Part shown: one piece after another, positions 45-43,636 of the stretch
How the letters are laid out: each line of letters opens with the position of its first letter
Position numbering within the stretch: the first letter of the stretch is position 1
DNA from: a virus
IMG/VR virus record: IMGVR_UViG_3300040801_004504
Coordinates: 1 to 43,749 of that record
Length of the DNA stretch: 43,749 nt
Strand: one strand, 5' to 3'
Translations under genes and position numbers: made by a program
The notes under the pieces: generated by a model
Seen by the model: the letters and a program-made list of their open reading frames with translations, nothing else
What the model was told of the DNA's origin: nothing
The model's database searches: none

Positions 45-116
45 GGTCTCGTAGTACAACGGATAGTATACAGGTTTCCGAAGCCTGCGATGATGGTTCG
101 ATTCCATCCGAGACCA
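45..116 (+). tRNA. tRNA-Arg (anticodon CCG), prophage integration target
   Basis: The cloverleaf folds cleanly. The acceptor stem pairs 45-51 with 109-115. The anticodon stem pairs 71-75 with 83-87, closing a TTCCGAA loop whose anticodon is CCG at 78-80. The T stem pairs 92-96 with 104-108 around TTCGATT. The discriminator base is A116 and CCA is not encoded. The gene remains functional in sequence because the left attachment copy, which must come from the phage side of the crossover, restores the 3' end. Confidence 0.95.
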
Positions 117-117
117 C
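102..117 (+). repeat. attachment core repeat, left copy (inside tRNA 3' end)
   Basis: TTCCATCCGAGACCAC is identical to 43621-43636. It covers part of the T loop, the 3' T-stem strand, the 3' acceptor strand and the discriminator base, the usual crossover location for tRNA-targeting integrases. Identity stops exactly at both edges (GA before and AAC after here; CG before and CCT after at the right copy). Confidence 0.9.
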
Positions 118-5021: not shown

Positions 5022-5329
5022 GAGTTTGGCCGGCCGCCGGTGGGCAGCTGATCGGGTTGGTGACCAAATCGGTCGGGTAGAAAGGGGCCAGACGCAACGA
5101 AGCCGCGACGGACCTGGGTCCGGGCGGCTTCGTTTGAGGAGCAAATCAGTCCAGAGCTACGCACTGGGGTGGGCTTTTCTAGGGGTTGACGGCCCGGCCC
5201 GAAATAATCTTTTACCCCACCCCCGTAGGGGTAGTGACGTCACGCTCTAACCAATCGCTCCACAAACGGTGTCACCCGATTGTGGGTGCAAGGTAGGGTT
5301 TTCAAACTTTGAAATGCAAATTCTGCAAA
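5022..5329. promoter_or_regulatory. control region of the leftward early operon, no gene
   Basis: No coding sequence is supported in these 308 bases. They hold a long imperfect hairpin (5096-5134), an inverted repeat TACCCC/GGGGTA (5213-5218/5228-5233), a perfect palindrome GTGACGTCAC (5234-5243), and the start of a TTTGCA-rich block. A poor leftward promoter can be drawn (-33 TTTG, 21-bp spacer, -7 TACCTTGC at 5288-5295 on the minus strand). The palindromes are candidate operators; none can be tied to a particular protein. Confidence 0.5.
5096..5134. promoter_or_regulatory. leader hairpin ahead of the leftward operon
   Basis: AACGAAGCCGC (5096-5106) pairs perfectly with GCGGCTTCGTT (5124-5134). 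Inside, GGACC (5110-5114) pairs with GGTCC (5117-5121). There is no T-run on either strand, so this is not a classical terminator. It would sit in the 5' leader of the leftward transcript, about 75 nt before the first start codon, and could act as an attenuator, mRNA-stability element or protein-binding site. Confidence 0.55.
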
Positions 5330-5345
5330 CTATTTTTGCAAACTT
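5287..5345 (+). repeat. regulatory module, left copy
   Basis: It starts with TGCAAGGTAG (5287-5296) and ends with TTTGCAAACTT (5335-5345). Both words recur in the same order and orientation at 7788-7797 and 7844-7854. Between them are further TGCAAA words (5315-5320, 5324-5329). The two copies bracket the AT-rich accessory cassette. They may be shared operators, the remains of the insertion that brought the cassette in, or both. Confidence 0.6.
5308..5338 (+). promoter_or_regulatory. rightward Bacteroidota-type promoter, apparently orphan
   Basis: TTTG at 5308-5311, a 19-bp spacer and TATTTTTG at 5331-5338 match the Bacteroidota -33 TTTG / -7 TAnnTTTG consensus exactly. It points rightward into genes lying on the opposite strand, so it would make antisense RNA. 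Its flanking words match those around the real rightward promoter at 7836-7867, suggesting it is the ancestral or duplicated copy. Confidence 0.5.
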
Positions 5346-5491
5346 CCCGGGAGGTGAATAAGATCAGATAGGTCAACATCGAACGCAGTGGCTAGATTGC
5401 GCAGGCCGTCACCAAGAATAGTAGCGTCGTCCTTAATGTCAGATGAGACGGAGATTTGTGTTTCGGCTAATGTATATGAAAGCGGGGTCAT
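5330..5491 (-). CDS. doubtful small ORF, possible HTH-protein remnant
   Basis: 53 aa from the ATG at 5491 (a GTG at 5533 would add 14). The tail GLRNLATAFDVDLSDLIHLP resembles the last helix of XRE-family repressors ('LxxLAxALGVxLSDLL'), but the rest of that HTH is not visible. The candidate rightward promoter overlaps its end. It may be a decayed repressor, a real small protein or spurious. Confidence 0.3.
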   Translation of the reverse strand: MTPLSYTLAETQISVSSDIKDDATILGDGLRNLATAFDVDLSDLIHLPGSLQK

Positions 5492-5534
5492 AGGATGAAG
5501 GATTAGTTTCCATTCAGCGGATAGGAAAGCCACT

Positions 5535-5550
5535 AGAGTAAGTATACTCT
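5535..5550. promoter_or_regulatory. inverted repeat AGAGTA-N4-TACTCT
   Basis: AGAGTA (5535-5540) and TACTCT (5545-5550) form a 6-bp inverted repeat just before the small ORF. Immediately beyond it, TAGGTTTG on the minus strand (5552-5559) matches a -7 box, and a 7-bp AACCTAC direct repeat occurs at 5554-5560 and 5574-5580. This looks like a small operator/promoter, but no good -33 element is seen. Confidence 0.35.
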
Positions 5551-5576
5551 ACAAACCTACAAGAAAAATAACGAAC

Positions 5577-6284
5577 CTACAGCCGCTTTTGCAAACTTTC
5601 CAACATATTGTTGTAATCTTCGATTTCTTGTTTGAATTTTTCCTGCTTCTCGGGAGACGACCTGTTGTAGGCAGACATGATTCTATTGAATGCAATCGTC
5701 AGATCTCTCACCTGTTTACGCAGCTTCGCATACTCGTCTATAGCCAGTCGCTTCTCAGTATTGGCAACGCGCAGTTTTGCTTCAAGAGTGTCAAAGATTT
5801 CCGCTAGTTCTCTAAGTCTATTTCCCGGCCTGATCTCACCGTGAACAAAATCTCCTACCTTCTGCTCTACCAGTTTGTCGTATTCATGGACTGGATCAGA
5901 AGTGTTCTGATTATTGAGATCGAGAAGCCGGTTGTATGGACGATCGCTGCCAGCGATGTACTTCTTAAGTAGAGGCCATGAATAAGCTGCTAGGTTGCGA
6001 AGGAAGAAGCTGACTACACGGTATACGTCAGGGCCTCCAATAGTCTGCCCACGCTCTCCTCTCTGCCTGGCATGGTACGAACGACGTACTGTCTGCAAAG
6101 CAGTTTGGTTATCCATGTCCGGATAGTTGTCGTTTAACCTACGCTCGTACTCTCTAATTTTCAGCTTCCCCCTTAGCTCGTTACTGTTAAGGTGGTCCTG
6201 TTTTGCAGCCTCGATCAGACCGTACAAAAATTCTATGTTTTGATCCTTGTTACTATCTAGTGCTGGATCATTGATCTTTATCAT
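5577..6284 (-). CDS. accessory-cassette protein with C-terminal coiled coil, unknown
   Basis: About 235 aa from the ATG at 6284 (MIKINDPALDSNKDQNIEFL). The longer GTG start at 6311 is rejected because it would overlap the -7 promoter box. The N-terminal half is helical (KQDHLNSNELRGKLKIREYE ...). From about residue 160 it is a long coiled coil (LAEIFDTLEAKLRVANTEKR, LRKQVRDLTIAFNRIMSAYN). It has no signal peptide or TM segment, hence cytoplasmic. It is AT-richer than the phage core and has its own promoter. A lysogenic accessory role (for example exclusion) is only a guess. Confidence 0.6.
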   Translation of the reverse strand: MIKINDPALDSNKDQNIEFLYGLIEAAKQDHLNSNELRGKLKIREYERRLNDNYPDMDNQTALQTVRRSYHARQRGERGQTIGGPDVYRVVSFFLRNLAAYSWPLLKKYIAGSDRPYNRLLDLNNQNTSDPVHEYDKLVEQKVGDFVHGEIRPGNRLRELAEIFDTLEAKLRVANTEKRLAIDEYAKLRKQVRDLTIAFNRIMSAYNRSSPEKQEKFKQEIEDYNNMLESLQKRL

Positions 6285-6310
6285 ACGCGCAGGCCACTGG
6301 CCGTTTCGCA

Positions 6311-6342
6311 CAAAGATAAAACCAAATGCAAACTAGCGCGAA
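6311..6342 (-). promoter_or_regulatory. promoter for the coiled-coil accessory gene
   Basis: On the minus strand TATCTTTG (6311-6318) matches the -7 TAnnTTTG consensus exactly. A 20-bp spacer and TTCG (6339-6342) stand at -33. TTTGCAT (6325-6331 reversed) lies inside the spacer, the same word that covers the rightward promoter at 7.84 kb. This box also decides the start codon of the downstream gene. Confidence 0.6.
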
Positions 6343-6428
6343 CTTTGTAAGATGAGGGACAAGTAAGCAACTACGAACAGTGGCGTACGGACGATCTTAA
6401 GAAGACGGTAACAGTATTTACCGGAAGG

Positions 6429-7226
6429 TCAGTTCATAATTAAACGGAACCCATTGGGATAGCCTCCCCCTATATTTGGGATAATGATGTTTAGCGTGCC
6501 ACTTATGAACTCTTGCTTAAAAATATTACCCGTGAGATGGTTATCGATAACTTGATGGTTTGACAAGTCGTACATCTGCATTTGGTAGTACATAATAGTG
6601 CTATCAGATGGGTTGTGTATTCCCAATTTGAAATCGCCTAAGCCATCTGATGTACTGGAATTCCCCTCAACTACCAGCTTGAAAATGGGAGAGCTAGAAG
6701 ATGTGGACACATTATATCCTTCAGACCGATTCCCAGTCAGTAATATTCCGCCTTCAGTCAACATCCACCCACACACTGTAAGCCCATCTGTAGTAGCGCA
6801 ACTTGAAAATAGCCCGGCACTAGTCCTAGGAGAAGATAAGGCATAAGGAACATCTCTTAATATGGACCTGCCTAGTTTCTGAAAGTCGTTGCCACCATCG
6901 GTATCTATCTCGGTAGATAGTGAGTACCTGAAAGATGTGAAGTCGAGATTATCAGCGGTACCGTCCTGTGGCTCCCCTTCAGTCAAAACTAGGTTAACCA
7001 GACCAAACTGATTAGTTCTGGTTTCAAAAACCTCAACGTAGTGGGTGTCCGTAGAATCATCTACGGGGGAGTAGGAGAATCTAAAGGATACATTCGATTC
7101 TGTGATAGGTGTGCCCTCTGCATTCCTCACGACGGCCTGATAGCTAATTCCTTGAGCCACCAAGTTTAGTGACAATGACAGTACTAACGCGACTGGTAGA
7201 ACGAGACGTAAAAATATTGTTTTCAT
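6429..7226 (-). CDS. secreted accessory protein sharing the fibre C-terminal 'PNIGG' domain
   Basis: A 265-aa protein. Residues 1-24 form a Sec signal peptide (LVLPVALVLSLSLNLVAQ, cleavage near VA|QG). Residues about 25-135 match an exported domain common in Bacteroidota ('QGISYQAVVRNAEGTPI ... TNQFGLVNLVL ... GGNDFQKLGRSILRDVPYAL'), often found at the start of surface or tail-fibre-like proteins. The last 95 residues (IIIPNIGGGYPNGFRLIMN) are homologous to the C-termini of two late-operon proteins at 22444-23517 and 23547-24230. It is cotranscribed with the T9SS cargo gene (15-nt gap). Likely displayed outside the cell; function unknown. Confidence 0.72.
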   Translation of the reverse strand: MKTIFLRLVLPVALVLSLSLNLVAQGISYQAVVRNAEGTPITESNVSFRFSYSPVDDSTDTHYVEVFETRTNQFGLVNLVLTEGEPQDGTADNLDFTSFRYSLSTEIDTDGGNDFQKLGRSILRDVPYALSSPRTSAGLFSSCATTDGLTVCGWMLTEGGILLTGNRSEGYNVSTSSSSPIFKLVVEGNSSTSDGLGDFKLGIHNPSDSTIMYYQMQMYDLSNHQVIDNHLTGNIFKQEFISGTLNIIIPNIGGGYPNGFRLIMN

Positions 7227-7241
7227 ACTAGAGTTTCGAAG

Positions 7242-7763
7242 TTATTTAGCTTTGATTATGGTGTGAGTAGAGTTATAAATTGTGCCGGATAGATTGCGAG
7301 TTTGAATTATGTAGATACCCGATGCGTGAGCAGATAAATCGATCTCGATATTGGACTGACCGTTTACAATCACATCGTTGAGAACAACAGATCCGAGGCT
7401 GTTAAGGACTCTTATGGTTAGCGATTGATCTTGACTATAGGGAGTGATGTAGACCCTTCCTGATGTCGGGTTAGGATAAATTCGTATGAGATAGTCTACG
7501 TTTATTGAGTTCGAGGAAGTCAAGGTGCGATCCACCTGGTGAAATCCCTGCGTGAGGACCACATCATTGTTGATGTAAGTTTCTGTAACTGACTCGCCTA
7601 TCGTATAACTGATGAAGATGGTTTCATTTTCGACGAACCCTCCATCAACAGCTAGGACTACCGGACCCAAGGTCTGACAGGCAATATTGTGGCATGCTAT
7701 CGAAAGGATCAGCACAAAATTGTACTTCGCTACCCACCTAGTTATCATCATGATATTTTGCAT
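7242..7763 (-). CDS. T9SS type A sorting-domain protein (secreted)
   Basis: About 173 aa from MQNIMMITRW; the ATGs at 7751 and 7748 are alternatives. A hydrophobic signal (FVLILSIACHNIACQ) is followed by VLAVDGGFVENETIFISYTI, GESVTETY and VLTQGFHQ, the core of a widespread short Bacteroidota secreted family. The C-terminus (about 92-173: IRIYPNPTSGRVYI ... LNSLGSVVLNDVIVNGQ ... IEIDLSAHASGIYII) is a type A sorting domain. The T9SS exports such proteins across the outer membrane, so this phage gene uses a host-specific machine. It is AT-rich and the first gene of the pair with 6429-7226. Confidence 0.82.
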   Translation of the reverse strand: MQNIMMITRWVAKYNFVLILSIACHNIACQTLGPVVLAVDGGFVENETIFISYTIGESVTETYINNDVVLTQGFHQVDRTLTSSNSINVDYLIRIYPNPTSGRVYITPYSQDQSLTIRVLNSLGSVVLNDVIVNGQSNIEIDLSAHASGIYIIQTRNLSGTIYNSTHTIIKAK

Positions 7764-7787
7764 ACACCCACGTCTACTTTGTTTAGA

Positions 7788-7854
7788 TGCAAGGTAGCAG
7801 TATGTACCAAGAATAAAGAAAACTAGTTTGCATAGTTTGCATGTTTGCAAACTT
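7788..7854 (+). repeat. regulatory module, right copy
   Basis: TGCAAGGTAG at 7788-7797 and TTTGCAAACTT at 7844-7854 repeat the left copy (5287-5345) in order and orientation. Two more TTTGCAT words lie at 7827-7833 and 7836-7842, giving three near-tandem half-sites spaced 8-9 bp. They overlap the -33 and spacer of the rightward promoter, the expected place for a repressor. Confidence 0.6.
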
Positions 7855-7867
7855 ATGCCTATCTTTG
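7836..7867 (+). promoter_or_regulatory. main rightward early promoter
   Basis: TTTG (7836-7839), a 20-bp spacer and TATCTTTG (7860-7867) match the Bacteroidota sigma-factor consensus exactly. Transcription should start near 7874, leaving a short leader before the ATG at 7913. The TTTGCA half-sites overlap it, implying repression in the lysogen. Confidence 0.72.
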
Positions 7868-14706: not shown

Positions 14707-15324
14707 TTAGGGGTTATCGATGACAGCCTGGACGTCGGCCTTCGTCACGGTTCCGTTCTTACCGGTACCGGTGACCTTTGAGATGTCGACGCCGTGCTGG
14801 CCAGCCAGCTTAGCTGCGGCATCACTGGCTTCGGTATCCTCAGCGGATGTGCTGACCTGAGCAATACCGACACCCTGCGCTCCGGCAACATTCACCCGGC
14901 TGATCGGATTATCGGCGCCGTCAACTACGATGGCCGACAGTGTCCCGGAGCCGGTGTGCTCGACGTCAATCGAGGTGGCGGTACCACTGTTCTGAGTGAC
15001 CGATACGATGGAGTCGACCTCCTGGCGATCGATCAGTTCGTGGATCGCATCCTGAATGCGCTGCGGACTGGAAGCAGCCGGAAGCGGATATTCGATACGT
15101 TCCTGTGTCAGCGAGTCTTCCCGACTGAAGGGAATGAAGCTCACCACGCCGTCCTTACCGGCATACTTGATGCCCTGGATAGTGGACTTGCCACTAAGGG
15201 CTACCGTGCCGGTATCGGTTCCGGCAGATCCCGGCTCATCGCGGTCGACGAGGCGGGTAGCGTTTTCGGAATTAGCGGCAGGGTTGGAGCGAAACTTACC
15301 GGCGAGATTGAGATCGTAGGCCAT
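14707..15324 (-). CDS. virion-region protein with C-terminal E3-binding (PSBD)-like domain
   Basis: 205 aa. A beta-rich body (GTVALSGKSTIQGIKYAG ... VVSFIPFSRED ... GTATSIDVEHTGSGTLSAIV) ends in a 35-residue domain at about 168-202: ASDAAAKLAGQHGVDISKVT, then GTGKNGTVTKADVQAVI. That is the peripheral subunit-binding domain pattern of dihydrolipoamide acyltransferases (LAxxxGxDxxxVxGTGxxGxxxxxDV). The same module ends 24217-25068. The body could be a decoration or fibre protein. It overlaps the preceding stop by one base (TGATG). Confidence 0.6.
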   Translation of the reverse strand: MAYDLNLAGKFRSNPAANSENATRLVDRDEPGSAGTDTGTVALSGKSTIQGIKYAGKDGVVSFIPFSREDSLTQERIEYPLPAASSPQRIQDAIHELIDRQEVDSIVSVTQNSGTATSIDVEHTGSGTLSAIVVDGADNPISRVNVAGAQGVGIAQVSTSAEDTEASDAAAKLAGQHGVDISKVTGTGKNGTVTKADVQAVIDNP

Positions 15325-16335: not shown

Positions 16336-17725
16336 CAGTCTCTGGTTGTTCGTCGCCCTGATCAGGCGTTTGTAAGTCCGACCCTCCGAGTTTCTGGGCA
16401 GGAGCTATCGGTTTAAGGTCCTTGATCAGTTCGGATACCGCATCCGGGAATTCGATGCCGAGATCGCGGTAGGGTGCCGGGACGTTCTCGTCTTCGAAAA
16501 TATTTGACAGTACGCCATTCCACAGATTTTCGAAGTAGTCCTGTTTGGGAGCAATCACTTCGCGGTTTTTCTCTACGTAGGTATCGTACAGCAGATTGCC
16601 CCCCAAAGAGGCATTAGCCTGTCGTAGGCTGGTAAGCGTAAGGTCCCAACTGAGCGATGCGGCTACAAAACTAGAAGCGTGTTGCTCCTGGAACTGCAGG
16701 TATTTCGTATCGTGGTTGACTTCGAAGTCAATGGCAGAGGGTGGATTGGTCCCGAAGGGGTGTTCAACGACTGCCACTTCGGCCTGGCCGGGCCGGGGCC
16801 CGATCGTATCGCCGGGGGCAGCCATAACCGTCACCAGCCGCTTAATTTCAAAGGCGTCACGCTGGAATGAGTCGACCTCATTGCCGTCTTCGTCGACCTC
16901 ACCACCGATAGCATTCGGATCCTGTCCCTCGATGGCAATTATCTTCTTCGCCAGTATGGCGGTAGCCGCTACCTTGCTCACGTGGTTGCTGGTCTGAAAG
17001 TCGGTGTAGTAGGCCGGCATGAAGCGTATGACGTTGGAACGTCCGTAGTAGCTGCCCTCATCATCGTCAACGCTTTCACGCAGGTGGACGACGGTACGCT
17101 CCGTCTGCTGGTCTCCCTCGTCCTGCATCCAGCGAAGGGGTTCACCTATGTCGCGGGTGACACGGTACAGTTTCGGTTTAGCCCCGGCAATGGTGCCGCT
17201 CTGCGTTAGGTGACGCGAGTGTAGCAGGAACCATTCGCCCGGATCGTAACTCTTCGTGTAGATGCAGTGCAGGTAGTGGAGTACTTCGAAACGGTAGGCG
17301 TAGGAATCTCCCACCCGTGATCGGGTAATTGCCAGGTAGGCATTGCCGGATTGTGCCAGGTGATCATCCATCGTTCCGGATAGCTTGATCATTCGCGTGA
17401 GGCTGAGATTAAACCCCTTAATTATCTCGGTGAACTTCACTCGGGTAGCGTAGTCTACTTCAGATCGTTTGGAGGCCAGCCCGGGAACGGCACGGCCACA
17501 TACCCGTACGCGGTGGCCGAAGGTCAGCTCCCTGCGAACCTTCATAACGGTGCCGTAGGTCGGTGAGAGTCCACACAGATCACGCAATAGCGCCAGGAAA
17601 GCATGAGAACCGTGCTGACTATCCCCGTAGTAAGGGATGCACCGATGCTTTCCAATCCAGGTAGTTACGGCTGCTTCGTCTACCTGCTCGTAGGGGATGG
17701 GGTTGCGGAACTGGAAAATGCTCAT
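16325..17725 (-). CDS. phage portal protein
   Basis: 466 aa from MSIFQFRNPIPYEQ; the ATG at 17725 is supported by a 4-nt ATGA overlap with the subtilase gene. The portal-like features are a helical N-terminus, the strand-rich stretch SGNAYLAITRSRVGDSYAYR, then YDPGEWFLLHSRHL, TVVHLRESVDDDEGSYYGRS, a stem-type region with VNHDTKYLQFQEQHASSFVA, and an acidic Pro-rich tail. Portals form the dodecameric DNA gate at the capsid vertex. Length fits the family. It is far from terminase and capsid genes, which is unusual. Confidence 0.75.
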   Translation of the reverse strand: MSIFQFRNPIPYEQVDEAAVTTWIGKHRCIPYYGDSQHGSHAFLALLRDLCGLSPTYGTVMKVRRELTFGHRVRVCGRAVPGLASKRSEVDYATRVKFTEIIKGFNLSLTRMIKLSGTMDDHLAQSGNAYLAITRSRVGDSYAYRFEVLHYLHCIYTKSYDPGEWFLLHSRHLTQSGTIAGAKPKLYRVTRDIGEPLRWMQDEGDQQTERTVVHLRESVDDDEGSYYGRSNVIRFMPAYYTDFQTSNHVSKVAATAILAKKIIAIEGQDPNAIGGEVDEDGNEVDSFQRDAFEIKRLVTVMAAPGDTIGPRPGQAEVAVVEHPFGTNPPSAIDFEVNHDTKYLQFQEQHASSFVAASLSWDLTLTSLRQANASLGGNLLYDTYVEKNREVIAPKQDYFENLWNGVLSNIFEDENVPAPYRDLGIEFPDAVSELIKDLKPIAPAQKLGGSDLQTPDQGDEQPETDGT

Positions 17726-18825
17726 CCCGATGCGTTGGTATTTCCGTAGAACAGTACGCGGAGATCTAGCGACCCGTCGGGACGCTTGCGCCCCATCAAC
17801 TTGACCGGTGCCCATTCGTCTTCGGGTGAGGGAGTTCCCTTCGTCTCATCGTCGTCCGTCACTGGCTCATTTCCTTCTGGTACATTAAGGTATCGTTCCA
17901 GCCGCGGTACTCCGAGGCCACTATCGTCATCCCGCCCCGGCTGGAGTATGTCGGTAGCGTGTTCGGCCAGGAAGCCGGCCAACTTATCCTGACTGTCGAT
18001 GTCCGACCGTAGCGAAAGTATCAGTGCGGCAACACCGGCCACCTGAGGGCATGCCATCGACGTTCCGCTCAGCTTGGCGTACCCACCATTTTTGTGGGTT
18101 GAGTAGATGGCGCCACCCGGGGCGGCAAGGTCAATCTCTCGACCACCGGCCGAGAAACTTGACCGACGGTCTCCCGGTTGGTCGGTGCTGGCTACGGTGA
18201 TGACCGGAGCGTAGTTACCCGGGGGGCCTACGGTGCTGCTGCCCCCGGAAAAGCCGCTGTTACCAGCGGCTACGATGATGAAACAGCCGCGGCCGATGGC
18301 GTAGTCGATGGCAGATTTTAGGTGAGAGGGAGTAGCCTGCCCCGCCGGGCCGCCAAGGCTGAGGGATAGGATGCGGCGCTTACCTTTCAGCCTACCCGCA
18401 TCTTCCAGGTCTGCGACGTAGCGAATCATTTGTGAGATCCACATGTAGGAACCGCCGCCGCTATCGTTGAGCACCTTGCAGGCTACTAGGCCAGCGGCCG
18501 GAGCAATGCCCATCACGCCGACTTCGTTGTCTACCCCCGCGACAATTCCGGCACAGTGCGTACCGTGGCCGTGATGGTCTCGATCGGGGGAGTTGGTCAG
18601 GTTTTTATTGAACTCTTGCAGATTGTTGACGGCAAGGTCAGGATGGTCGGCGAATGTGCCGGCGGTGTCGAGCACGAATACGACCGCATTTTCGCCCCGA
18701 GTGAACTCATGAGCCGCCGCCGCCTGCAGGTAGACGTTCCCCCAGTCAACCACCTGACCGGCAGATAGGGCGATGGGGTCGACGTGGTATTCGGGTAGCT
18801 GAATGTCGTAGCGTGGATCGTTCAT
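17722..18825 (-). CDS. subtilisin-like (S8) serine protease without signal peptide
   Basis: 367 aa from MNDPRYDIQLPEYH; the ATG at 18825 overlaps the amidase stop by 4 nt. The S8 triad is complete: Asp53 (VVFVLDTAG), His87 (HHGHGTHCAG) and Ser256 (LSGTSMACP), with the oxyanion Asn189 (VAAGNSG). An acidic linker and a short 'APVKLMGRKRPDGSLDL' tail follow (about 320-367). No signal peptide or long propeptide is seen, so it should act in the cytoplasm or virion, or leave at lysis. An S49 prohead protease is encoded elsewhere, so its target is unclear. Confidence 0.9.
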   Translation of the reverse strand: MNDPRYDIQLPEYHVDPIALSAGQVVDWGNVYLQAAAAHEFTRGENAVVFVLDTAGTFADHPDLAVNNLQEFNKNLTNSPDRDHHGHGTHCAGIVAGVDNEVGVMGIAPAAGLVACKVLNDSGGGSYMWISQMIRYVADLEDAGRLKGKRRILSLSLGGPAGQATPSHLKSAIDYAIGRGCFIIVAAGNSGFSGGSSTVGPPGNYAPVITVASTDQPGDRRSSFSAGGREIDLAAPGGAIYSTHKNGGYAKLSGTSMACPQVAGVAALILSLRSDIDSQDKLAGFLAEHATDILQPGRDDDSGLGVPRLERYLNVPEGNEPVTDDDETKGTPSPEDEWAPVKLMGRKRPDGSLDLRVLFYGNTNASG

Positions 18826-20276
18826 CGGCGGTAGAAGTGTTTGGCAATCATCCATCCGCAACCGCGGTTGGTGTTCTTAGATGGAGGTAGTGGCTCGGTA
18901 TTAGAATCTTCGTTCTCAATCGGTTCGGGCACCTCAGTAGCTGGATGTTCGGGAACGTCACCTTCCTCATTGGCCACATCCCGGTCGGTCCTGGCCTGTC
19001 GGATCATGTCCAGCAATCGCTCTTTGGGGAAGTAGTGGCCAGGACAGGTCCATCCGGGCCGCAGTTCATTGTGGAAAGTCACCTCACAGTTGCGACCGAG
19101 CAGATCATCATGGCGCAGAACTCCGGCCACGGCTGCTAGCAACGAGTCCTCCGTAGGCGGGTGTTGCTCGAAGTTGCCTAGCAGGCAGTGCCCCACACTA
19201 AGGCCGTTGTAACCTCCACAGTGGTAACTGACCGTTTCGGGACGTTGCGTGAGGCAGGTCTGGCCGGATGGGTCGGTGACTTCGTGGTAGGCAATACCCG
19301 GCCAGTCCTGACCGGTCGGCAGACCATTGGAGGCTACACCCTTGGGAGCACTGTGAAAGGCGGCGATACTACGGACGGTATCGTAGTCGGACCCAGACAT
19401 GTGGAAGACATACTTCACCTTCTCACTGATTTCTACGATCCCGTATCGCTTGGAGGGGTGGCTGGGTAGCTGGTCAATCAAATCGATCGGCCGGGGTAGT
19501 TCACCCCCCGAATACGGCCGTACCATAGCCACAGACATGGCGAGTTGCCCCTCAAATTTGGCGTAGAAACCCGGCGGCGGCGGGTTGTCCCAGTCAATTC
19601 CCGTCGCTTCGTAGTGCGCCAGAAGGGCACGATACTGCTCGTAGGTAATGGGCTCATCCAGCTCCCCCACTTCCGTCCAGGACTGGTAGCGCTTGATCAC
19701 CTTGGTTCGCTCCTTATCCTTGCGTTCAGCACGGCGTCGAGCTTTTCCCTCCTTAGTCGGTTTGAAAATTTTGATCAGGCCCGGCAGGAAGCTGATCACT
19801 TCCCATATTCCCACCAATGCCGCCGGTGTAGTCAGGGTCCGGACCTTTTGGTCGCTGGCGGCATTCTTACCCCATAGAGTGAATACTAGGTGAAAGGCAG
19901 CGGCCTGAAGTAGATAGAGTGCGACCCACACCAACAGCCATACCCAGAAGGGAGCGGCTGGGAAGATGAGGCTTAGCAGTATAACGATGGCCGTACGTAC
20001 GGCGGCGTACTGTACTTCCTGCAGCAGGTGCCATCCGTCCGTGAGGAATACCAGGGCGGTAGTCGACAGCGGGAAACGCTCTTCGAGGGGACGGATGAGC
20101 TTGCCATCTGGTCCGCTACGGTATTTGTTGCGCCAACTTTCGGAAGGTTTCCAGAAATGATCCTTGAGGCCGGCAGTCCACCCCCGTCCATAGTGGAATT
20201 GCAGCTTGTCGGCGGCGCCCTTGGCTGCGTGTGCTATTACCAATAGGACGACGGCGATAGTTATATACAATACCAT
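18822..20276 (-). CDS. membrane-anchored N-acetylmuramoyl-L-alanine amidase (endolysin fusion)
   Basis: 484 aa. Residues 1-170 form a membrane domain: one TM at 1-15, then LSTTALVFLTDGWHLLQEVQ (70-89) and hydrophobic stretches at about 92-136, a pattern seen in stand-alone Bacteroidota phage membrane proteins. A basic linker (175-200) leads to an amidase_2/PGRP domain (about 285-430) with Zn-ligand candidates H292 (FHMSG), H402 (FHNEL) and C411 (TCPGH) and the YHEVTDPSG strand. It cuts the amide between MurNAc and the peptide stem. An acidic Pro-rich tail follows. It lies just after a holin candidate, as a lysis cassette. Confidence 0.82.
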   Translation of the reverse strand: MVLYITIAVVLLVIAHAAKGAADKLQFHYGRGWTAGLKDHFWKPSESWRNKYRSGPDGKLIRPLEERFPLSTTALVFLTDGWHLLQEVQYAAVRTAIVILLSLIFPAAPFWVWLLVWVALYLLQAAAFHLVFTLWGKNAASDQKVRTLTTPAALVGIWEVISFLPGLIKIFKPTKEGKARRRAERKDKERTKVIKRYQSWTEVGELDEPITYEQYRALLAHYEATGIDWDNPPPPGFYAKFEGQLAMSVAMVRPYSGGELPRPIDLIDQLPSHPSKRYGIVEISEKVKYVFHMSGSDYDTVRSIAAFHSAPKGVASNGLPTGQDWPGIAYHEVTDPSGQTCLTQRPETVSYHCGGYNGLSVGHCLLGNFEQHPPTEDSLLAAVAGVLRHDDLLGRNCEVTFHNELRPGWTCPGHYFPKERLLDMIRQARTDRDVANEEGDVPEHPATEVPEPIENEDSNTEPLPPSKNTNRGCGWMIAKHFYRR

Positions 20277-20489: not shown

Positions 20490-22424
20490 TTAGTTAGCCG
20501 TCTTCAGGGCCGACACTGATATGTTCGGGCCGGCAAAGTTGCCAGCACCAAAGTAGTAGCTTCCGCCTACAATGGCCGATGTGGTAGCGGCGTCATTTGA
20601 CTCCAACGCTGGCCGCCCCCCGCTCGAAAGCCGGCGGCTTAATAGGGAGTTCACCAACGTAATCGGCCGGTTAGTTGTGATGACTGGGTATAGGCCCGAG
20701 GTAGTCGAAAGCGTACCCTGGATTACCGTTCGACCGGTACCCGTATCCGGTGCGCTGGAAGCGCTGGATATGACTGGTGCGGCGTCCGTTCGTAGAGTGC
20801 CGGCGATGTAAGTGTTGCCACTATTGGTGCCGCTCTGGTTCATCTTGATTACGCTCTGCTCACGACTGTAGATATTTCCCGAGATGCTGACCTCTCCCCC
20901 CTGGGGCTGATCCAGCAGAATGAACCCGTCATCGATCACGCAACTGCGGCATTCAATATCTACGTAGGAACCGGTCAAGTCTCCCGAAAGTCTCGCCATT
21001 CGCGGATTATCACCAAACGTATTGCTGCTGTAGACGACGTCGGAATAGTCGACGTCCCCCTGAAATGCAAGCGCACTACCCCTTGGGGGTACAGCTATCT
21101 CATCGATTTGGATCTGGACGGTGCTATTCGTCACCCCCGCGCCCCGCTCAATAGTGAATAAGCGCGAGAACTGGCCGCGTTTGCTGCCATAGTCCTGTGT
21201 CGGGAAATTGCTGATTCCAGTCTTCACTCGAGCGACTATAAATTGTACCTGGCTGTTGTCCAGTATATGGCGATTAACCTGCAGCCAAAGCGCAGGGTGT
21301 ACGTTATTCTCGGCTATCTCCAGTTCTCTTACTACGAAGCGAAAGTTTTGGTTTTGCTGCGGCCGGTCTCTCATAGTTTCGAAGAATCCGGTACTTAGAA
21401 TAGCACCCTCAGCTTCAATAACCCGATCTACTACTCCCGAAACATTCACGCCGGCGGGGCTTGATCCGTTCACTGCGCAGAGCACGTTGGAGCGGCTCCG
21501 CGGATTGAAGGAACCGACTTCAACGTTGATATTTATTTCGGGTATTGCGTCCCCGTTCGCCAGCGTCGGGTCTTGGTCATCCACGTAGGCGTATACCGAA
21601 CCGGAATTTGTGAGCCGCAAATTGCCCGTCATTGTGACATCGTATGTTCCGTCGGCGTTAGTAGGCAGGTCAATAGTGTTGTACGCCTGTACCTCGAAGA
21701 GCTTCACTTGACCGGTACCGGTACTGGTAATTGCCACATTGTCGAAACTGAAGGTTACGTCATCCGGTGGGTTGACAATCGTACCACCGAGGTCACCCTC
21801 CAGGCTGTACTCGCTATTGTAGGTGTGGACTACGTCGCCGGGTAGGAAGCCGCCGGCCTCGATCGCTGCACGTAAGTCTTGCCAAGGACGGGTCGGGTCG
21901 CCTACCGCTGCCGTGGCGTTGTTACCTTGGACCCGATTCACGTACCGAATGCGGCCGTAGTCGACCGGTTCTCCGCCAGCGGCCACCTCCGCGTTGTGCG
22001 TCAAGATTGCGCTCATCATCGCCTGGCTGATCGATTGGCTATTGGCGGGCGGCACCGGTATGGTGGGCTTCGTCGGGTCGTAGGCGTAGACCACCCCGAT
22101 CCCGATAGGCTCGGTATTCGTGGTGCCGATCCCCTGCAGCGTCAGTTCTGCGTCCCCGAAAGTGGTGGCTCCTACGGTCTCCACCGAGTACTGTTGCCGC
22201 GTGTTGGTCAGCACCCGCATTCCGGCGGTGATTTGGCTGGCGAGGTACCCCAGGCCGCTCTGATCGGCTTGCATCGTCATCGTGACTTGGTAAGTATTGC
22301 CGCTCGGGTTCGTAATGTCCGAAAAGCTACCGACCATGTAGTAGCGCCCCTGGATTTGTCCGCATGCGGGCACCGCCATCGCTAGAAGGACCGCCAGTAG
22401 AAAGTGCGTAATGTTGAATTTCAT
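20490..22424 (-). CDS. tailspike-like beta-helix protein with Sec signal peptide
   Basis: 644 aa. Residues 1-22 are a signal peptide (FLLAVLLAMAVPACGQ; VPAC could be a poor lipobox). Residues about 24-150 are clearly homologous to the same region of 22444-23517 (shared LTMQADQ/MTMQADQ, GYLAxQ, GVVYxYD, PPANxQxISQA). From about 160 the sequence is a strand-rich repeat with RIRYVNRVQGNNATAAVGDP, then RPWQDLRAAIEAGGFLPGDV, the start of a pectin-lyase-like beta-helix. This is a likely receptor-binding or depolymerase spike. A Sec signal on such a protein is unexpected. Confidence 0.65.
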   Translation of the reverse strand: MKFNITHFLLAVLLAMAVPACGQIQGRYYMVGSFSDITNPSGNTYQVTMTMQADQSGLGYLASQITAGMRVLTNTRQQYSVETVGATTFGDAELTLQGIGTTNTEPIGIGVVYAYDPTKPTIPVPPANSQSISQAMMSAILTHNAEVAAGGEPVDYGRIRYVNRVQGNNATAAVGDPTRPWQDLRAAIEAGGFLPGDVVHTYNSEYSLEGDLGGTIVNPPDDVTFSFDNVAITSTGTGQVKLFEVQAYNTIDLPTNADGTYDVTMTGNLRLTNSGSVYAYVDDQDPTLANGDAIPEININVEVGSFNPRSRSNVLCAVNGSSPAGVNVSGVVDRVIEAEGAILSTGFFETMRDRPQQNQNFRFVVRELEIAENNVHPALWLQVNRHILDNSQVQFIVARVKTGISNFPTQDYGSKRGQFSRLFTIERGAGVTNSTVQIQIDEIAVPPRGSALAFQGDVDYSDVVYSSNTFGDNPRMARLSGDLTGSYVDIECRSCVIDDGFILLDQPQGGEVSISGNIYSREQSVIKMNQSGTNSGNTYIAGTLRTDAAPVISSASSAPDTGTGRTVIQGTLSTTSGLYPVITTNRPITLVNSLLSRRLSSGGRPALESNDAATTSAIVGGSYYFGAGNFAGPNISVSALKTAN

Positions 22425-22443: not shown

Positions 22444-23517
22444 TTAGTTCCAGATGGCTCGGTAATAATTAGGGTAGTTGCCGCCTATATTCGGTATCTC
22501 GAACCGATTTTCGAGGTTCCTCTGTAGGTCTTGTTTTGGCACATTGCCCGTCAGGTGAACGTCTACCTTTTGATTGTTGCTTTGGTCGTACATCTGGTAG
22601 CTGTAGTCGTCTGCCAGCCTGCCTGTGAACCGGAAAACGGCCGTACCGGAGGCGTTGGCACCATCGCTGTTTCCAACGGCCGCAATCTTCAGCGCCGTAC
22701 AGCTACAGTCTATTTGGTAGCCAGTAGTAGCGTCCCCGCTGAACGTCGGCTCTTCTTCGCCGAAATGCCACACTGTAATAGACATATCCGTTCCGTAGCT
22801 GTTGCCGGTTCGTTTAATTCTGCTGCCTACCGTTACGGTCTCGTCGCTGTTTGTCAGCCCGAGCTCTCCCGTTGCCGGGTTGTAGGTCGGATCTTGATAT
22901 TCGTCGGTCGGGTCGTCGTCGCCACTCGGGAAGATGGTCGGCTTCCCGACTAGTTCTGCCCAAGTAGGCAAGGGTCGGGTGTAAGTAATGGGATTGCCTG
23001 CACTTCCGTCACCGGTCACCGGCGCTTGCGTCTCTACCGTGGAGCTTCCGCCGGCAAGTTCCTGCGTAGCCACCTCGAAGTTGTGGATGAGCATTCGCGC
23101 CAGCAGCGCCTGGCTAATGCCCTGTGCGTTGGCCGGCAGCGGCGGTATCATCCGCGTCGTGCCGTCGTATTCGTAGACTACCCCTACGCCCGAGGGTCCG
23201 AGGGTCGTGCCTTCGATCTCGAGCAGGGTCACCGTTGCGCTTGAGAAGTTGGACGACGGCACTGCCGTGATTTCGTACTCGCGCCCGGTGGCCGTGAGCA
23301 AGCGCCAACCGACCTGCACCTGATTGGCGAGGTAGCCCGCGCCGAGTTGATCGGCCTGCATCGTCAGCGTCGCCTGGTGGGTGGTAGCTGTCGGGCTACT
23401 TACGTCCGTGATCGTGGCCGCCATGCTGAAGCGTGTCTCGAGCTGTGCGCTGGCATCGGTAGCGAAAGCGAGGCATGCCAGTAGCAGGAAGGCCCCGTAA
23501 AGGTTGCTAAGTTTCAT
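22444..23517 (-). CDS. fibre-like protein with signal peptide and C-terminal PNIGG domain
   Basis: 357 aa. The signal peptide is 1-25 (AFLLLACLAFATDASAQ, AxA site). Residues about 26-150 share a domain with the N-terminus of 20490-22424. A linker (VETQAPVTGDGSAGNPITYT) and a short beta repeat lead to the C-terminal domain (about 262-357, ending FEIPNIGGNYPNYYRAIWN) shared with 23547-24230 and with the secreted accessory protein at 6429-7226. Being in the fibre block it may be virion-associated, but the signal peptide argues for export. Confidence 0.65.
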   Translation of the reverse strand: MKLSNLYGAFLLLACLAFATDASAQLETRFSMAATITDVSSPTATTHQATLTMQADQLGAGYLANQVQVGWRLLTATGREYEITAVPSSNFSSATVTLLEIEGTTLGPSGVGVVYEYDGTTRMIPPLPANAQGISQALLARMLIHNFEVATQELAGGSSTVETQAPVTGDGSAGNPITYTRPLPTWAELVGKPTIFPSGDDDPTDEYQDPTYNPATGELGLTNSDETVTVGSRIKRTGNSYGTDMSITVWHFGEEEPTFSGDATTGYQIDCSCTALKIAAVGNSDGANASGTAVFRFTGRLADDYSYQMYDQSNNQKVDVHLTGNVPKQDLQRNLENRFEIPNIGGNYPNYYRAIWN

Positions 23518-23546: not shown

Positions 23547-24230
23547 TTAGCGCAGGAGTTGATCAAATCCATTGGGGTAGCTACCGCCAATGTTGGGGGT
23601 TTCCAGAGTGGTTACGTTGCCAGCCACGGCCTGCCCGAGGGAATGCCCGCGGGCGACCTTATCGGCTTCCTGTTTCTGGCTACCGTCGTAGATCTGGTGG
23701 GTGAACTTCCGGTCGTAGCCGTTGGCGCTGTTGTCGACGATGAACAACAGCGTCCCGTCGGCCTGTGCCGTGTTGCTGTCGCCGGTAAGGTCGATGTGAT
23801 CGATGTGACTTCCCGCCGGCATGGTCAGGCGGTAGCCGTTGGCACTGTCGCCGTCAACATTTGGTTCCGTGGCTCCGTGGTAGTGTACTACTACCGCCAA
23901 ACCGTCGATCGTTTCAGAGTATACGTTATAGGCTGACCCCCCACCGCCTCCGCCCGTTCCCTGGGTTTGCCAGTTGGTGTTGCCTAGGTGGGCATCGACA
24001 GCGGCAACGATTTCGGCGGGGGTTTGGTCTTGCGTTGCCTGCTGCTCAATGCTGCCCAGCTTACTTGCAGCTGCATCGGTGAAAGCGTTCGTATTCGAGT
24101 TGGACTCGTAGGCCGACTTCACCGCGGCCGGGTTGAGCGGGGGCAGGGGAATGATCTCGTCAATCTCGATCGCGGCCGCTCGAACTTCCTCGGTGCCGCT
24201 GACGGTCGTATCGTTCTTACTTTTCATCAT
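23547..24230 (-). CDS. tail-fibre-like protein with C-terminal PNIGG domain
   Basis: 227 aa, no signal peptide. Residues about 30-85 (PAAVKSAYESNSNTNAFTDA, then AASKLGSIEQQATQDQTPAE) are the short helical repeat typical of phage fibre or baseplate-attached proteins ('FTDA..KL..IE..AT.DQT..EI'). A Gly-rich hinge (92-97) follows. The C-terminal 95 residues (TPNIGGSYPNGFDQLLR) match two other proteins in this element. Probably a receptor-binding tip or virion attachment protein. It overlaps the upstream gene by 14 nt. Confidence 0.68.
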   Translation of the reverse strand: MMKSKNDTTVSGTEEVRAAAIEIDEIIPLPPLNPAAVKSAYESNSNTNAFTDAAASKLGSIEQQATQDQTPAEIVAAVDAHLGNTNWQTQGTGGGGGGSAYNVYSETIDGLAVVVHYHGATEPNVDGDSANGYRLTMPAGSHIDHIDLTGDSNTAQADGTLLFIVDNSANGYDRKFTHQIYDGSQKQEADKVARGHSLGQAVAGNVTTLETPNIGGSYPNGFDQLLR

Positions 24231-25068
24231 CGATCTTTTTTACGTCAGCCTTCAGAATGCGTCCTTCCTGGCCCGTCCCGCATACCTGGTGAAGATCCAG
24301 TCCACGCTCTTCGGCCAGCGTCTTGGCGGCCTCGGTTGCATCTACTTCCTCGGTGGCGGTAGTGACCTCGTTCGGCTGGCCCTCCTGCTGGGCACGTACT
24401 TCGTTGGGGCCGTAGGCTCCGTAAATGCCGTCCCCGTTGTCGTCTTTTCCGTAGACATCGTTACCCGATCCGAAGGCCTGCACCCCCTGGGGGAGCAGAT
24501 TGTCGCGCATCTGCTGGGTGCCGACGTTCGCGTAGAGCGGAGCGTACTGCACCCGGCCGCCGAAGTCGAGCTCGTCGCGAGCATTGTCACCAGCCGCCTG
24601 GCCGGCGTTGTCCTGGTGGCGGATGATCCGATTGCGCTGGAAGGGCCGGCCGAACACCTCGCCATCGTACTCTACGCCGGTAACCCGTTCGGTACGATCG
24701 GCCATGATGGTGTGGCAGACCAGATCGCAGTTCTCGATCATGTTACGAATCTTCTTCGTACGGGCGGCGCTCTTCCCTTCCAGGATTACGGTCTCGACCA
24801 CCTCGTAGAAGGCGTTGTCCGAGGTGCGGGTCGCATCCCAGGTAGCGCTCTCGCGGTCGAATTCGATCTCGACGAATCCGGTGGCGCCGGTCTTGAAGAT
24901 GTACCGTAGGATGATTCCGTTTTCGGGATCGAAGGCGCCGGGGTCAGCCAGCATGGCCTCCCAGTCTATTTCGTTTCGCTTGGCTACGAACTTGCGACGG
25001 GGGCCCTTGAGGGGGTTACAGCTGTCGTCGAATCCGAATCCCTCCAGTTGGGACGTTAAATAGGGCAT
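24217..25068 (-). CDS. capsid-neighbour protein with C-terminal E3-binding (PSBD)-like domain
   Basis: 283 aa. The body (PLKGPRRKFVAKRNEIDWEA ... IRNMIENCDLVCHTIMADRT) lies directly after the capsid candidate (11-nt gap), where head decoration or completion proteins are usual. Residues about 245-280 (TEAAKTLAEERGLDLHQVCG, then TGQEGRILKADVKKI) are an excellent match to the peripheral subunit-binding domain of 2-oxo acid dehydrogenase E2 proteins. In a virion the module probably serves protein-protein contacts. No enzymatic domain is seen. Confidence 0.62.
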   Translation of the reverse strand: MPYLTSQLEGFGFDDSCNPLKGPRRKFVAKRNEIDWEAMLADPGAFDPENGIILRYIFKTGATGFVEIEFDRESATWDATRTSDNAFYEVVETVILEGKSAARTKKIRNMIENCDLVCHTIMADRTERVTGVEYDGEVFGRPFQRNRIIRHQDNAGQAAGDNARDELDFGGRVQYAPLYANVGTQQMRDNLLPQGVQAFGSGNDVYGKDDNGDGIYGAYGPNEVRAQQEGQPNEVTTATEEVDATEAAKTLAEERGLDLHQVCGTGQEGRILKADVKKIDDEK

Positions 25069-36148: not shown

Positions 36149-36419
36149 GGTCGGGCAGCTTTCAATCCACGACACGCACGGATTGCCACAATTAGTTGCA
36201 AGTTAATTATTTTACTACGAATTGTAGACCGCATGAATGATGCACGACAAAGCGTCTGGGTTTGCACGAAAAACCTGCACGGTTTAAAATCAAATCGGAA
36301 CAGATTAGGAACAAAGTGCGTACTGATTGTATACTAAGTGCGACTTAATTTGTTATTTTGTAAGTGACTTTTTTGGTAGAAAGTCAGTAGTTACAGAACA
36401 GTCTAGCAGCGACGACATA
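36149..36419 (+). promoter_or_regulatory. AT-rich divergent control region for the toxin-antitoxin pair and tape measure
   Basis: No gene is supported in these 271 bases. AAGTGCG occurs at 36314-36320 and 36336-36342, 22 bp apart (two helical turns), each starting a small inverted repeat (AGT-GCGT-ACT, 36315-36324; AAGT-GCG-ACTT, 36336-36346). A third AAGT-G-ACTT lies at 36362-36370. TTAATTTG (36345-36352) and TTATTTTG (36353-36360) are near matches to a rightward -7 box. This looks like an autoregulated promoter of the Panacea gene. Confidence 0.5.
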
Positions 36420-36950
36420 ATGGAAGAGGCAATCGCAGTAGCGAATTACTTTATCGACAAGTCGATACACGACCCGGACCCGCGGGCGGCCGTGACCAAC
36501 ATGAAACTGATCAAGTTGGTCTACATCGCTCATGGTTGGTACCTGGCCATGTACGACCGACCGCTCATCAAAGAGAATGCCGAGGCCTGGAAGTACGGGC
36601 CGGTCATTCCGACGGTCTACGAAGAGTTTCGGCACCATGGGGGGGAGTACATTACCGAGAAGGCAAACGGTTCATTCTGGAAGAGCAACAGCCGCTACGA
36701 ACTTACCGAACGTGAGGGTCTGGCGCCGTTCCTGGATAAGGTATGGAACACCTATGGCTACTACACAGGGGGACAGCTGATGAACCTGACCCACCAAGTA
36801 GGTACCCCCTGGGAGATGACCTGGCACCACTACGGCGGTCGGGGCGGGTTCGGTGTCACTATCCTCAATCCGCTCATCCAGAGCCACTATCGGGACAAGC
36901 TGGAAACGAACAAGAAGGCCAATGCAGCAGCCGAACCCGAAGGAGTTTGA
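36420..36950 (+). CDS. Panacea-domain (DUF4065/SocA-like) antitoxin
   Basis: 176 aa from MEEAIAVANYFIDKS; the ATG at 36420 starts exactly at the domain. Signature blocks: VTNMKLIKLVYIAHGWYLAM (25-44), EAWKYGPVIPTVYEEF (55-70) and a later LTHQVGTPWEMTWHHY. Panacea is an established antitoxin domain that neutralises unrelated toxins, including membrane-acting ones, often in prophages. It lies on the opposite strand to the late operon with its own control region, as phage 'moron' genes do. The downstream overlapping two-TM gene is the probable toxin. Which partner is toxic is inference. Confidence 0.85.
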   Translation: MEEAIAVANYFIDKSIHDPDPRAAVTNMKLIKLVYIAHGWYLAMYDRPLIKENAEAWKYGPVIPTVYEEFRHHGGEYITEKANGSFWKSNSRYELTEREGLAPFLDKVWNTYGYYTGGQLMNLTHQVGTPWEMTWHHYGGRGGFGVTILNPLIQSHYRDKLETNKKANAAAEPEGV

Positions 36951-42140: not shown

Positions 42141-43442
42141 CTACCCAACGTCTCGCTTCCCACCGTAGTATGGTAGGGCCTTCAATCTGGCGGCCCGCTG
42201 CTCGGCGTCTTCCTTGATGTAGTGGAGCAACGTCTTTCTATCGGCATGGCCGGTCATGGCCTGGATGTCGTCGAGATGGATTCCGGCGGCGTGTGCGTTG
42301 GTAGCAAAGCTACGTCGGGCCGTGTGGGTACTGATGAGTTCGTACTTCTTGAACTCTTGGATGACGGACTTGCCGCGGATCTGTCGGACCAACCTGACGG
42401 TTTCGGTCATGCCTGCCATCTGGCAGACCTCCTTTACGTACCGGTTGATAGTTTGAGGCTTCCGATCCGGTAGCTTCCAATCGTATCGTTCTCCTACGGT
42501 TCGCATCATCTCGCTCAGAGGGATGACTACGCGTTTACGGATTCCCTTCTGGGTGAATAGGCTAAGCATTTGGCGGCCGTCCACCTCGATCAGGTTGCCG
42601 GCGTTGATCTGCGGCCACCGATTCACCCGAAGGCCAGTACAGCAGCCGGCCAGAAAGAGGTCACGGCACTCCGTGTGAAGCTGGAAATCGGATAAATCGA
42701 AGTTGGCCAGATGCTCGAGCTCTTCGTCGTAGAGTGCGATGGTATCCATCGCCTGAGAGGATAGCCGGAGGTGGCTTTTGAGCTGCACCGAGTGAATATC
42801 TGCCCCCAGTTTGTGGCCGTGGGCGGCGGCATGGATGCAGACCTGCTTGAACTTGCGTAGCATCTTATGGACGGTGGAGTCACTCCGCTCTTCCGGAAGG
42901 GTCCAGAAGTAGTCGCGGTACTCCTCGAACAGTCCGAGATTGATGTCGGCAAAACGAGTGCGCTGGATACGCTGAGCGTCAAACCGGATGAACCAGTCCC
43001 GGGCAACCCGATCGCTAGCAACCGTTGCTCGTGACAGGTTGGCAGTCCGCTCACGGTCGCGAATGAAGGTTCGGTAGTAGTCCGCTACGGTGGGTTCTTC
43101 CATCCGAACGACGGTCTCTTCGCCGTGAATACGGTGACGCAACATCTTCTTCAGTAGATCCGGAGTGAGTTCACTGATGCGATGATCACGACGGTACTCG
43201 TTGTAGGTTCGGCGTACGAACTGGTCGAGGTCGTCCAGAATGCGGTTTACCTCCAGGTAGTCCGGTCGTCGGCGGCACCACTTATCCAGTACGCGTTGAG
43301 CTTTCTTATCCCAGTGGTCCGGGCTGACATGCTCGGACGTAGAGACATGAATGCGCTGACGGCGGTATGCGAAGCGAAGGAGGATCATCGCTTCCCGATC
43401 CGTCTTGGGCTTCTCAAGGTAGTAGCGGACCTTGTGGGACAT
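42141..43442 (-). CDS. int: tyrosine recombinase integrase
   Basis: 433 aa. An N-terminal arm-binding domain (ILLRFAYRRQRIHVSTSEHV, about 20-39) and SAM-like core-binding domain (about 118-215) precede the catalytic domain with Arg272 (CTGLRVNRW), Lys299 (FTQKGIRKRV), HTAR 373-376 (STHTARRSFATN), His399 (MTGHADRKT) and the nucleophile Tyr408 (LLHYIK). The layout is that of Bacteroidota phage/conjugative integrases. It joins attP to the 3' end of tRNA-Arg. It lies 178 nt from the right attachment copy. Confidence 0.95.
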   Translation of the reverse strand: MSHKVRYYLEKPKTDREAMILLRFAYRRQRIHVSTSEHVSPDHWDKKAQRVLDKWCRRRPDYLEVNRILDDLDQFVRRTYNEYRRDHRISELTPDLLKKMLRHRIHGEETVVRMEEPTVADYYRTFIRDRERTANLSRATVASDRVARDWFIRFDAQRIQRTRFADINLGLFEEYRDYFWTLPEERSDSTVHKMLRKFKQVCIHAAAHGHKLGADIHSVQLKSHLRLSSQAMDTIALYDEELEHLANFDLSDFQLHTECRDLFLAGCCTGLRVNRWPQINAGNLIEVDGRQMLSLFTQKGIRKRVVIPLSEMMRTVGERYDWKLPDRKPQTINRYVKEVCQMAGMTETVRLVRQIRGKSVIQEFKKYELISTHTARRSFATNAHAAGIHLDDIQAMTGHADRKTLLHYIKEDAEQRAARLKALPYYGGKRDVG

Positions 43443-43620: not shown

Positions 43621-43636
43621 TTCCATCCGAGACCAC
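43621..43636. repeat. attachment core repeat, right copy
   Basis: TTCCATCCGAGACCAC is an orphan copy of the tRNA-Arg 3' end with no 5' tRNA half before it, so it marks the original end of the host tRNA gene displaced by integration. Confidence 0.9.

Follow-up and report, generated by a model that had tools for sequence, protein, structure and literature searches.

A prophage-borne T9SS cargo gene paired with a fibre gene that carries a phage-type tip

Why would a temperate phage carry a gene for a small protein of the type that its host sends out through the T9SS? A sequence-only reading of one virus record had proposed that the gene at 7,242–7,763 encodes T9SS cargo in a prophage, that it is cotranscribed with a secreted PNIGG-domain protein in an AT-rich cassette, and that the cassette serves lysogenic conversion. 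Here we ask what this protein is, what it travels with, and what the two products could do for a lysogen. The window is the whole virus record, 43,749 bases long, and its relevant features are collected in Table 1.

Table 1 Features of the prophage discussed in the text
Feature	Position	Strand	Remarks
IMG/VR record IMGVR_UViG_3300040801_004504	1–43,749		Whole virus record, identical with the window
tRNA-Arg(CCG)	45–117	+	Host gene, integration site; attL core 102–117
Left operator-like cluster	5314–5345		5314–5337 is one arm of a 24-nt inverted repeat (88%)
Third gene of the AT-rich cassette	5577–6311	-	Coiled-coil-like, without family; possibly a repressor
Single TGCAAACTT copy	5590–5598	+	Inside the cassette
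Single TGCAAACTA copy	6327–6335	+	Upstream of the third cassette gene
Chimeric secreted fibre protein, 265 aa	6429–7226	-	15 bases downstream of the T9SS gene
Fibre C-terminal (PNIGG) tip	6432–6821	-	Homologous to the phage's own tail-module proteins
Fibre N-terminal domain, residues 26–135	6822–7151	-	Like host chromosomal fibres and, below cut-off, NF053851 Bdello_MAT_N
T9SS type A cargo, 173 aa	7242–7763	-	Signal sequence, beta region of about 45 aa, sorting domain; HMMs, AlphaFold, Foldseek
T9SS type A sorting domain, residues 95–162	7278–7481	-	PF18962, TIGR04183
Right operator-like cluster	7819–7854		Three TGCAAACTW; 7819–7842 is the other repeat arm; adjoins TATCTTTG at 7860–7867
Tail-module protein	22444–23517	-	Signal-like N-terminus; same tip family as the fibre
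Predicted tail fibre protein	23547–24230	-	C-terminus of the same tip family as the fibre
Tyrosine integrase	42141–43442	-	Beside the right repeat copy; profile match
attR core	43621–43636	+	16-bp repeat of the tRNA 3' end

Results

The record is an integrated prophage of a Lewinella-type host

A 16-bp direct repeat occurs at 102 and 43621, its first copy forming the 3' end of the tRNA-Arg(CCG) gene, and a terminase, a head protease and a tape measure protein are recognisable in the prophage. An identical tRNA-Arg is present in 12 stretches of our genome collection, all labelled Neolewinella, Lewinella or Saprospiraceae. Taken together, the repeats at the tRNA gene, the integrase, the structural genes and the tRNA matches identify an integrated temperate phage in a host of the Lewinella type, a marine bacterium. 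The last 113 bases, beyond attR, resemble the DNA that follows the tRNA gene in a Saprospiraceae MAG (L005; local alignment score 23, against 7–12 for the other 11 stretches), and the locus in that MAG would be an empty integration site. We rejected the idea that the cargo gene is a host gene at the prophage edge, because it lies 7 kb inside attL. The presumed origin of the host in a T9SS-rich lineage was borne out: all 12 genomes with the identical tRNA-Arg contain matches to our A1 profile, 68 to 146 per genome, which serve here as a count of T9SS cargo.

We looked for prophages of the same kind with the terminase in 248 genomes of the host family; matches came from four of them, three on or at contig ends, and no comparable control region was recognised in the ORF listings of the pieces fetched (contigs C59, C626, C680, C41 and C21). 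One terminase relative (L065, G032:C21:34839-35855) has 13 TGA codons in frame and may belong to a recoded phage or be a decayed gene.

Some other genes of the window deserve mention. Two structural-block proteins (14707–15324 and 24217–25068, minus strand) end in an E3-binding (peripheral subunit-binding) domain, PF02817, which scores well above its cut-off and is unexpected there. A subtilase (17722–18861, minus strand; PF00082, E 5.7e-48) lies in the late block beside an Amidase_2 protein (18822–20276). Within the late block, a SocA/Panacea antitoxin-like gene (36327–36950, plus strand) runs against the direction of its surroundings and is followed by a small ORF, possibly a toxin-antitoxin or defence insertion.

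A small protein with a T9SS type A sorting domain

The sequence-only reading had suggested sorting-domain HMMs as its check, and both curated models score above their cut-offs: PF18962 gives 46.9 bits (cut-off 27, E 3.3e-12) over residues 95–162 of 173, and TIGR04183 gives 35.8 bits (cut-off 23, E 5.9e-9), its single match in the window. A PNP motif at residues 97–99 does not vary across the aligned family. AlphaFold models the C-terminal part with confidence as a beta-sandwich (block pLDDT about 77–90) of the Ig-like type, and Foldseek matches it to the sorting domains of NucA (8glk_D), mirolase (8qb1_A) and RemA (8gl6_D) with probability 1.00 and E values of 4e-3 to 7.5e-3; Ig-like domains of DUF3244 score higher than these solved sorting domains (E 1.3e-4). 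On the HMM scores and the fold we rejected a chance match, and the core proposal, T9SS cargo encoded by a prophage, holds.

The N-terminus has an 11-residue hydrophobic core (mean hydropathy 2.0), and Q is nearly invariant at the presumed mature start across the family; a Sec-type N-terminus is plausible. Between this N-terminus and the sorting domain lie only about 45–60 residues, modelled with low confidence, so the protein carries no recognisable enzyme. Its transport would depend on the T9SS, as expected from its family.

The neighbouring fibre joins a host-type base to a phage-type tip

We then considered the neighbour, which had been described as a secreted PNIGG-domain protein cotranscribed with the T9SS gene. 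The two genes lie on the same strand with a 15-base gap. The description itself is correct for the PNIGG part and incomplete for the whole: that part is homologous to the tail fibre of this phage, and the N-terminal half is a fibre domain of the host lineage.

This N-terminal base matches NF053851 Bdello_MAT_N with E 2.7e-5 and 24 bits, short of the curated cut-off of 60. Other fibres, chromosomal and phage-borne, behave similarly, with 8/8 matching at E <= 0.001 and 28–39 bits, all below the cut-off. The layout of MAT proteins, a signal peptide followed by a beta-rich domain of about 130 aa, is present in the fibre, where the signal peptide is judged by hydropathy only and residues 28–123 are beta-rich in the AlphaFold model (block pLDDT 78–97). 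At E <= 1e-10 the base was found in 168 of the 248 host-family genomes. The tips differ between relatives, which amounts to tip exchange; when five chromosomal fibres were scanned against Pfam, one had a C-terminal S74 chaperone domain and the others showed no clear tip family. The fibre protein contains no sorting domain.

Of the 174 ORFs in the record, just two others are homologous to the tip: the predicted tail fibre (27.5% identity, E 2e-10) and the adjacent tail-module protein (35% identity, E 1e-16). The N-terminus of the predicted tail fibre matches annotated tail fibres of many phages. Among the 248 host-family genomes the tip family occurs in one, the same by single sequence and by profile, and there the tip lies on a 10-kb contig (L054) whose genes, judged from their translations, are tail- or baseplate-like. 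No member was detected in a 395-genome sample of the phylum, searched without a positive control, or in an IMG/VR scan with the tip alignment. The AlphaFold model of the tip is poor (pLDDT mostly <65), and Foldseek returned no solved relative. Phages found with this tip arrangement number one.

Signal-like starts recur around such genes. The tail-module protein (22444–23517) and its neighbour (20490–22424), on the minus strand, both have signal-like hydrophobic starts and resemble each other in an N-terminal region (46% over 141 residues), and on L054 a signal-bearing protein directly follows the tip-family gene.

T9SS and fibre genes are paired in host chromosomes and in other phages

To see whether the association of the two genes is general, we turned to host genomes. 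By tblastn the 173-aa protein had matches in 11 of 12 host-lineage genomes, mostly only to the sorting domains of large proteins; the full-length matches adjoined genes related to the N-terminal half of the fibre. Profile searches of 12 Lewinella-group genomes were used for the pairing itself, with a full-length relative defined as a match from model position 8 or earlier. Among the matches listed, all 14 full-length T9SS relatives have a fibre gene beside them in the same orientation. Of the 16 fibre genes listed, 14 are paired with such a T9SS gene, the remaining two being chromosomal fibres without such a partner. The T9SS gene comes first in 11 of the 14 pairs and the fibre gene in three. 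These counts include rows of the search alignments (10 of the 14 T9SS relatives and 11 of the 16 fibre genes), of which the T9SS rows were chosen as full-length relatives and the fibre rows by their adjacency to T9SS rows; with the rows set aside, pairing is 4/4 for T9SS genes and 3/5 for fibre genes. Judged by these matches, the cargo gene is one half of a two-gene module with the fibre gene. The earlier interpretation is partly supported but incomplete, the small T9SS protein being the constant partner of a fibre protein. By its own terms this interpretation would have been refuted by the cassette turning up outside prophages at the same position, which was not observed: the two-gene module does exist outside prophages, but was not found there with this tip or in this place.

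An IMG/VR scan with the fibre-base alignment yielded three loci (G259, G260 and G261). The first is Mu-like, with a transposase, a MuB-like protein, an endolysin and a tape measure protein; in it, a protein whose sorting domain scores above cut-off comes after a fibre with a SusD-like tip. The portal and the major head protein mark G260 as crAss-like, and there a small T9SS protein (E 3e-11 against the 173-aa cargo, sorting domain above cut-off) precedes a fibre whose Lcl_C-like tip falls below that family's cut-off. We do not count G261 as a pair, since its fibre lies at the record end and the sorting-domain match elsewhere is below cut-off. An uncommon combination is seen in a Mu-like phage record (L056, 8001–9587), where a fibre base and a SusD-like domain are fused.

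Neither the G259 nor the G260 tip matched any other ORF of its own record, which argues against a general rule that tips are taken from the tail of the phage itself. When IMG/VR was scanned with single proteins (T9SS protein, fibre, terminase and tail fibre), no relatives came up. A tblastn search of 50,697 phage records likewise gave none for the T9SS protein, the fibre, the signal-bearing tail-module protein or the third cassette gene, nor for the T9SS protein or fibre base of G260.

The pair lies between operator-like clusters

The T9SS and fibre genes have 42–44% GC against 56% for the prophage, so the cassette is AT-rich as proposed. It is also marked by a repeated sequence. The 8-mer AGTTTGCA has seven copies in the 43,749-base record, all inside 2.5 kb, and forms the tightest cluster of the 1348 8-mers with at least five copies. 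Written as TGCAAACTW, a motif chosen after seeing it, the seven copies all lie within 5324–7854, against 0.47 expected in the window. The AT-rich genes are enclosed by the outer clusters, which are the arms of a 24-nt inverted repeat spaced 2,481 bases apart, and the TATCTTTG box abutting the right cluster faces the rightward operon.

In phage lambda, the operators OL and OR flank cI and rexAB, and a cassette between operator-like clusters recalls this arrangement. Such a geometry would place the pair among the genes expressed in the lysogen, and the cassette would then belong to the lysogeny-control region. Family profile searches revealed no recognisable repressor in the cassette. We tried a 67-aa ORF (5330–5533) for this role and set it aside, as it matches no family clearly; the third cassette gene has no clear family match either, and no relative in the 248 host-family genomes or the phage records. 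The position is compatible with the lysogenic conversion that had been suggested, which we retain as a suggestion.

Discussion

What, then, could the pair do? With modest confidence we favour a two-gene surface-fibre module of the Bacteroidota type, in which a T9SS-exported partner holds a docked fibre that displays a phage-type tip and alters the adhesion of the lysogen or the access of phages to it. Both proteins would cross the inner membrane by Sec, as their N-termini suggest. The small protein, which carries the type A sorting domain, would then cross the outer membrane through the host T9SS in the manner of its family. The mosaic fibre, with its host-type base and phage tail-type tip, may dock on the T9SS protein and in this way be exported or kept at the surface; the near-constant gene pairing and the lack of a sorting domain in the fibre point to such docking. 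The lysogen would thus display a tip that presumably binds, and this could change what the cell adheres to or which phages reach their receptor.

A substantial though smaller probability goes to a plain adhesin of lysogenic conversion, a fibre that sticks the lysogen to particles, polysaccharide or other bacteria and has no role in phage exclusion. The base is common in host genomes (168/248) and its tips are exchangeable, the SusD-like and Lcl_C-like tips of the other two phage records are both of a binding-protein type, and PblA and PblB of Streptococcus mitis, in the accessible text on them, are phage-encoded surface adhesins (PMC2920869). What an adhesin of this kind leaves unexplained is that the tip here belongs to a phage tail family.

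This membership is the starting point of a third possibility, superinfection exclusion by receptor masking, in which the surface tip binds the receptor of the tail fibre and blocks adsorption of related phages. In its favour, the tip has homologues in two proteins of the tail module, the phage's own tail fibre among them, and the site between operator-like clusters suits lysogen expression; exclusion has also been proposed for other phage-borne T9SS cargo by Bellas et al. (PMC7468147, accessible text). We nevertheless consider it unlikely. Tip and tail are just 27–35% identical, which does not imply a common specificity; the two halves of the fibre are equally low in GC, with 42.5% in the tip against 52–59% in the tail genes, so the tip was not copied recently from the tail genes now present; and the other two paired phage records show no internal tip match.

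Composition also bears on whether the module is cargo in transit, brought from a low-GC Bacteroidota chromosome or phage and without function for this phage. The 42–46% GC of the module stands out from the 56% of the prophage, and also from the 53–65% of eight chromosomal T9SS gene copies measured in the Lewinella group, so the module was not recently taken from a Lewinella-type chromosome. Against a mere passenger, both reading frames are unbroken and retain the positions that are invariant in their families, at 17–35% identity, and T9SS/fibre pairs occur in three unrelated phage types; we regard this explanation as quite unlikely. That the two proteins belong to the virion or to the lysis phase, and not to the lysogen, is very improbable: the tip is indeed common to tail proteins and two tail-module proteins also have signal-like N-termini, but the pair is remote from the late block and flanked by operator-like clusters, and it is not evident what a virion would use a T9SS sorting domain for.

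Returning to the surface-fibre module, a bolder form of it can be stated, though it is rather unlikely as a whole. The phage may have given a T9SS-dependent fibre module of Bacteroidota a new tip, taken from the family of its receptor-binding domains, and kept the module between its operators, the tips on the lysogen acting as a receptor block or an adhesin and the T9SS protein as the anchor of Bacteroidota MAT-like fibres.

How does this pair compare with known systems? The sequence-only reading suggested that few reports of phage-borne T9SS cargo exist, and we found two. Bellas et al. 2020 (PMC7468147) describe, in the text accessible, three T9SS-labelled Cryophage genes as a unique occurrence and suggest competition or superinfection exclusion; the available part of de Jonge et al. 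2019 (PMC6949934) places T9SS sorting domains near crAss-BACON ORFs. With these already in print, phage-borne T9SS cargo alone is not new. The Cryophage and crAss-BACON proteins are likewise phage products with sorting domains presumed to use the export machine of the host. The cargo in those cases, however, consists of an endoglucanase, a glycoside hydrolase, a PA14 protein and proteins associated with BACON, and neither a T9SS/fibre pair nor a phage-tail tip is described in the accessible parts of these papers. Among the open-licence papers listed, judged by their titles and the openings of their abstracts, we found no report of a phage-borne T9SS/fibre pair.

PblA and PblB of S. mitis phage SM1 are similar in being phage-encoded and acting as adhesins on the host surface. 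According to the available text they differ in reaching the surface by the phage holin and lysin, binding choline, and having no dedicated secretion signal or export partner (PMC2920869).

The closest likeness in architecture is to the MAT fibres of Bdellovibrio bacteriovorus (PMC10769870, accessible text), which share a signal peptide, a conserved beta-rich N-terminal domain and exchangeable C-terminal binding tips, some of them phage-like (S74). The pair described here departs from them in its base, which scores below the family cut-off, and in its Bacteroidota genes, its T9SS partner and its short fibre, and the same text names no PNIGG-type phage-tail tip for MAT. Bdellovibrio MAT fibres are surface exposed, and the authors left their anchor open (PMC10769870, as far as accessible). 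In Bacteroidota, a constant T9SS partner would supply such an anchor for MAT-like fibres. What had appeared as an isolated phage T9SS cargo would thus become a device of two parts, in which an export partner serves a fibre bearing a phage-type tip. Its position would be that of lysogeny control, and Mu-like and crAss-like phages offer parallels.
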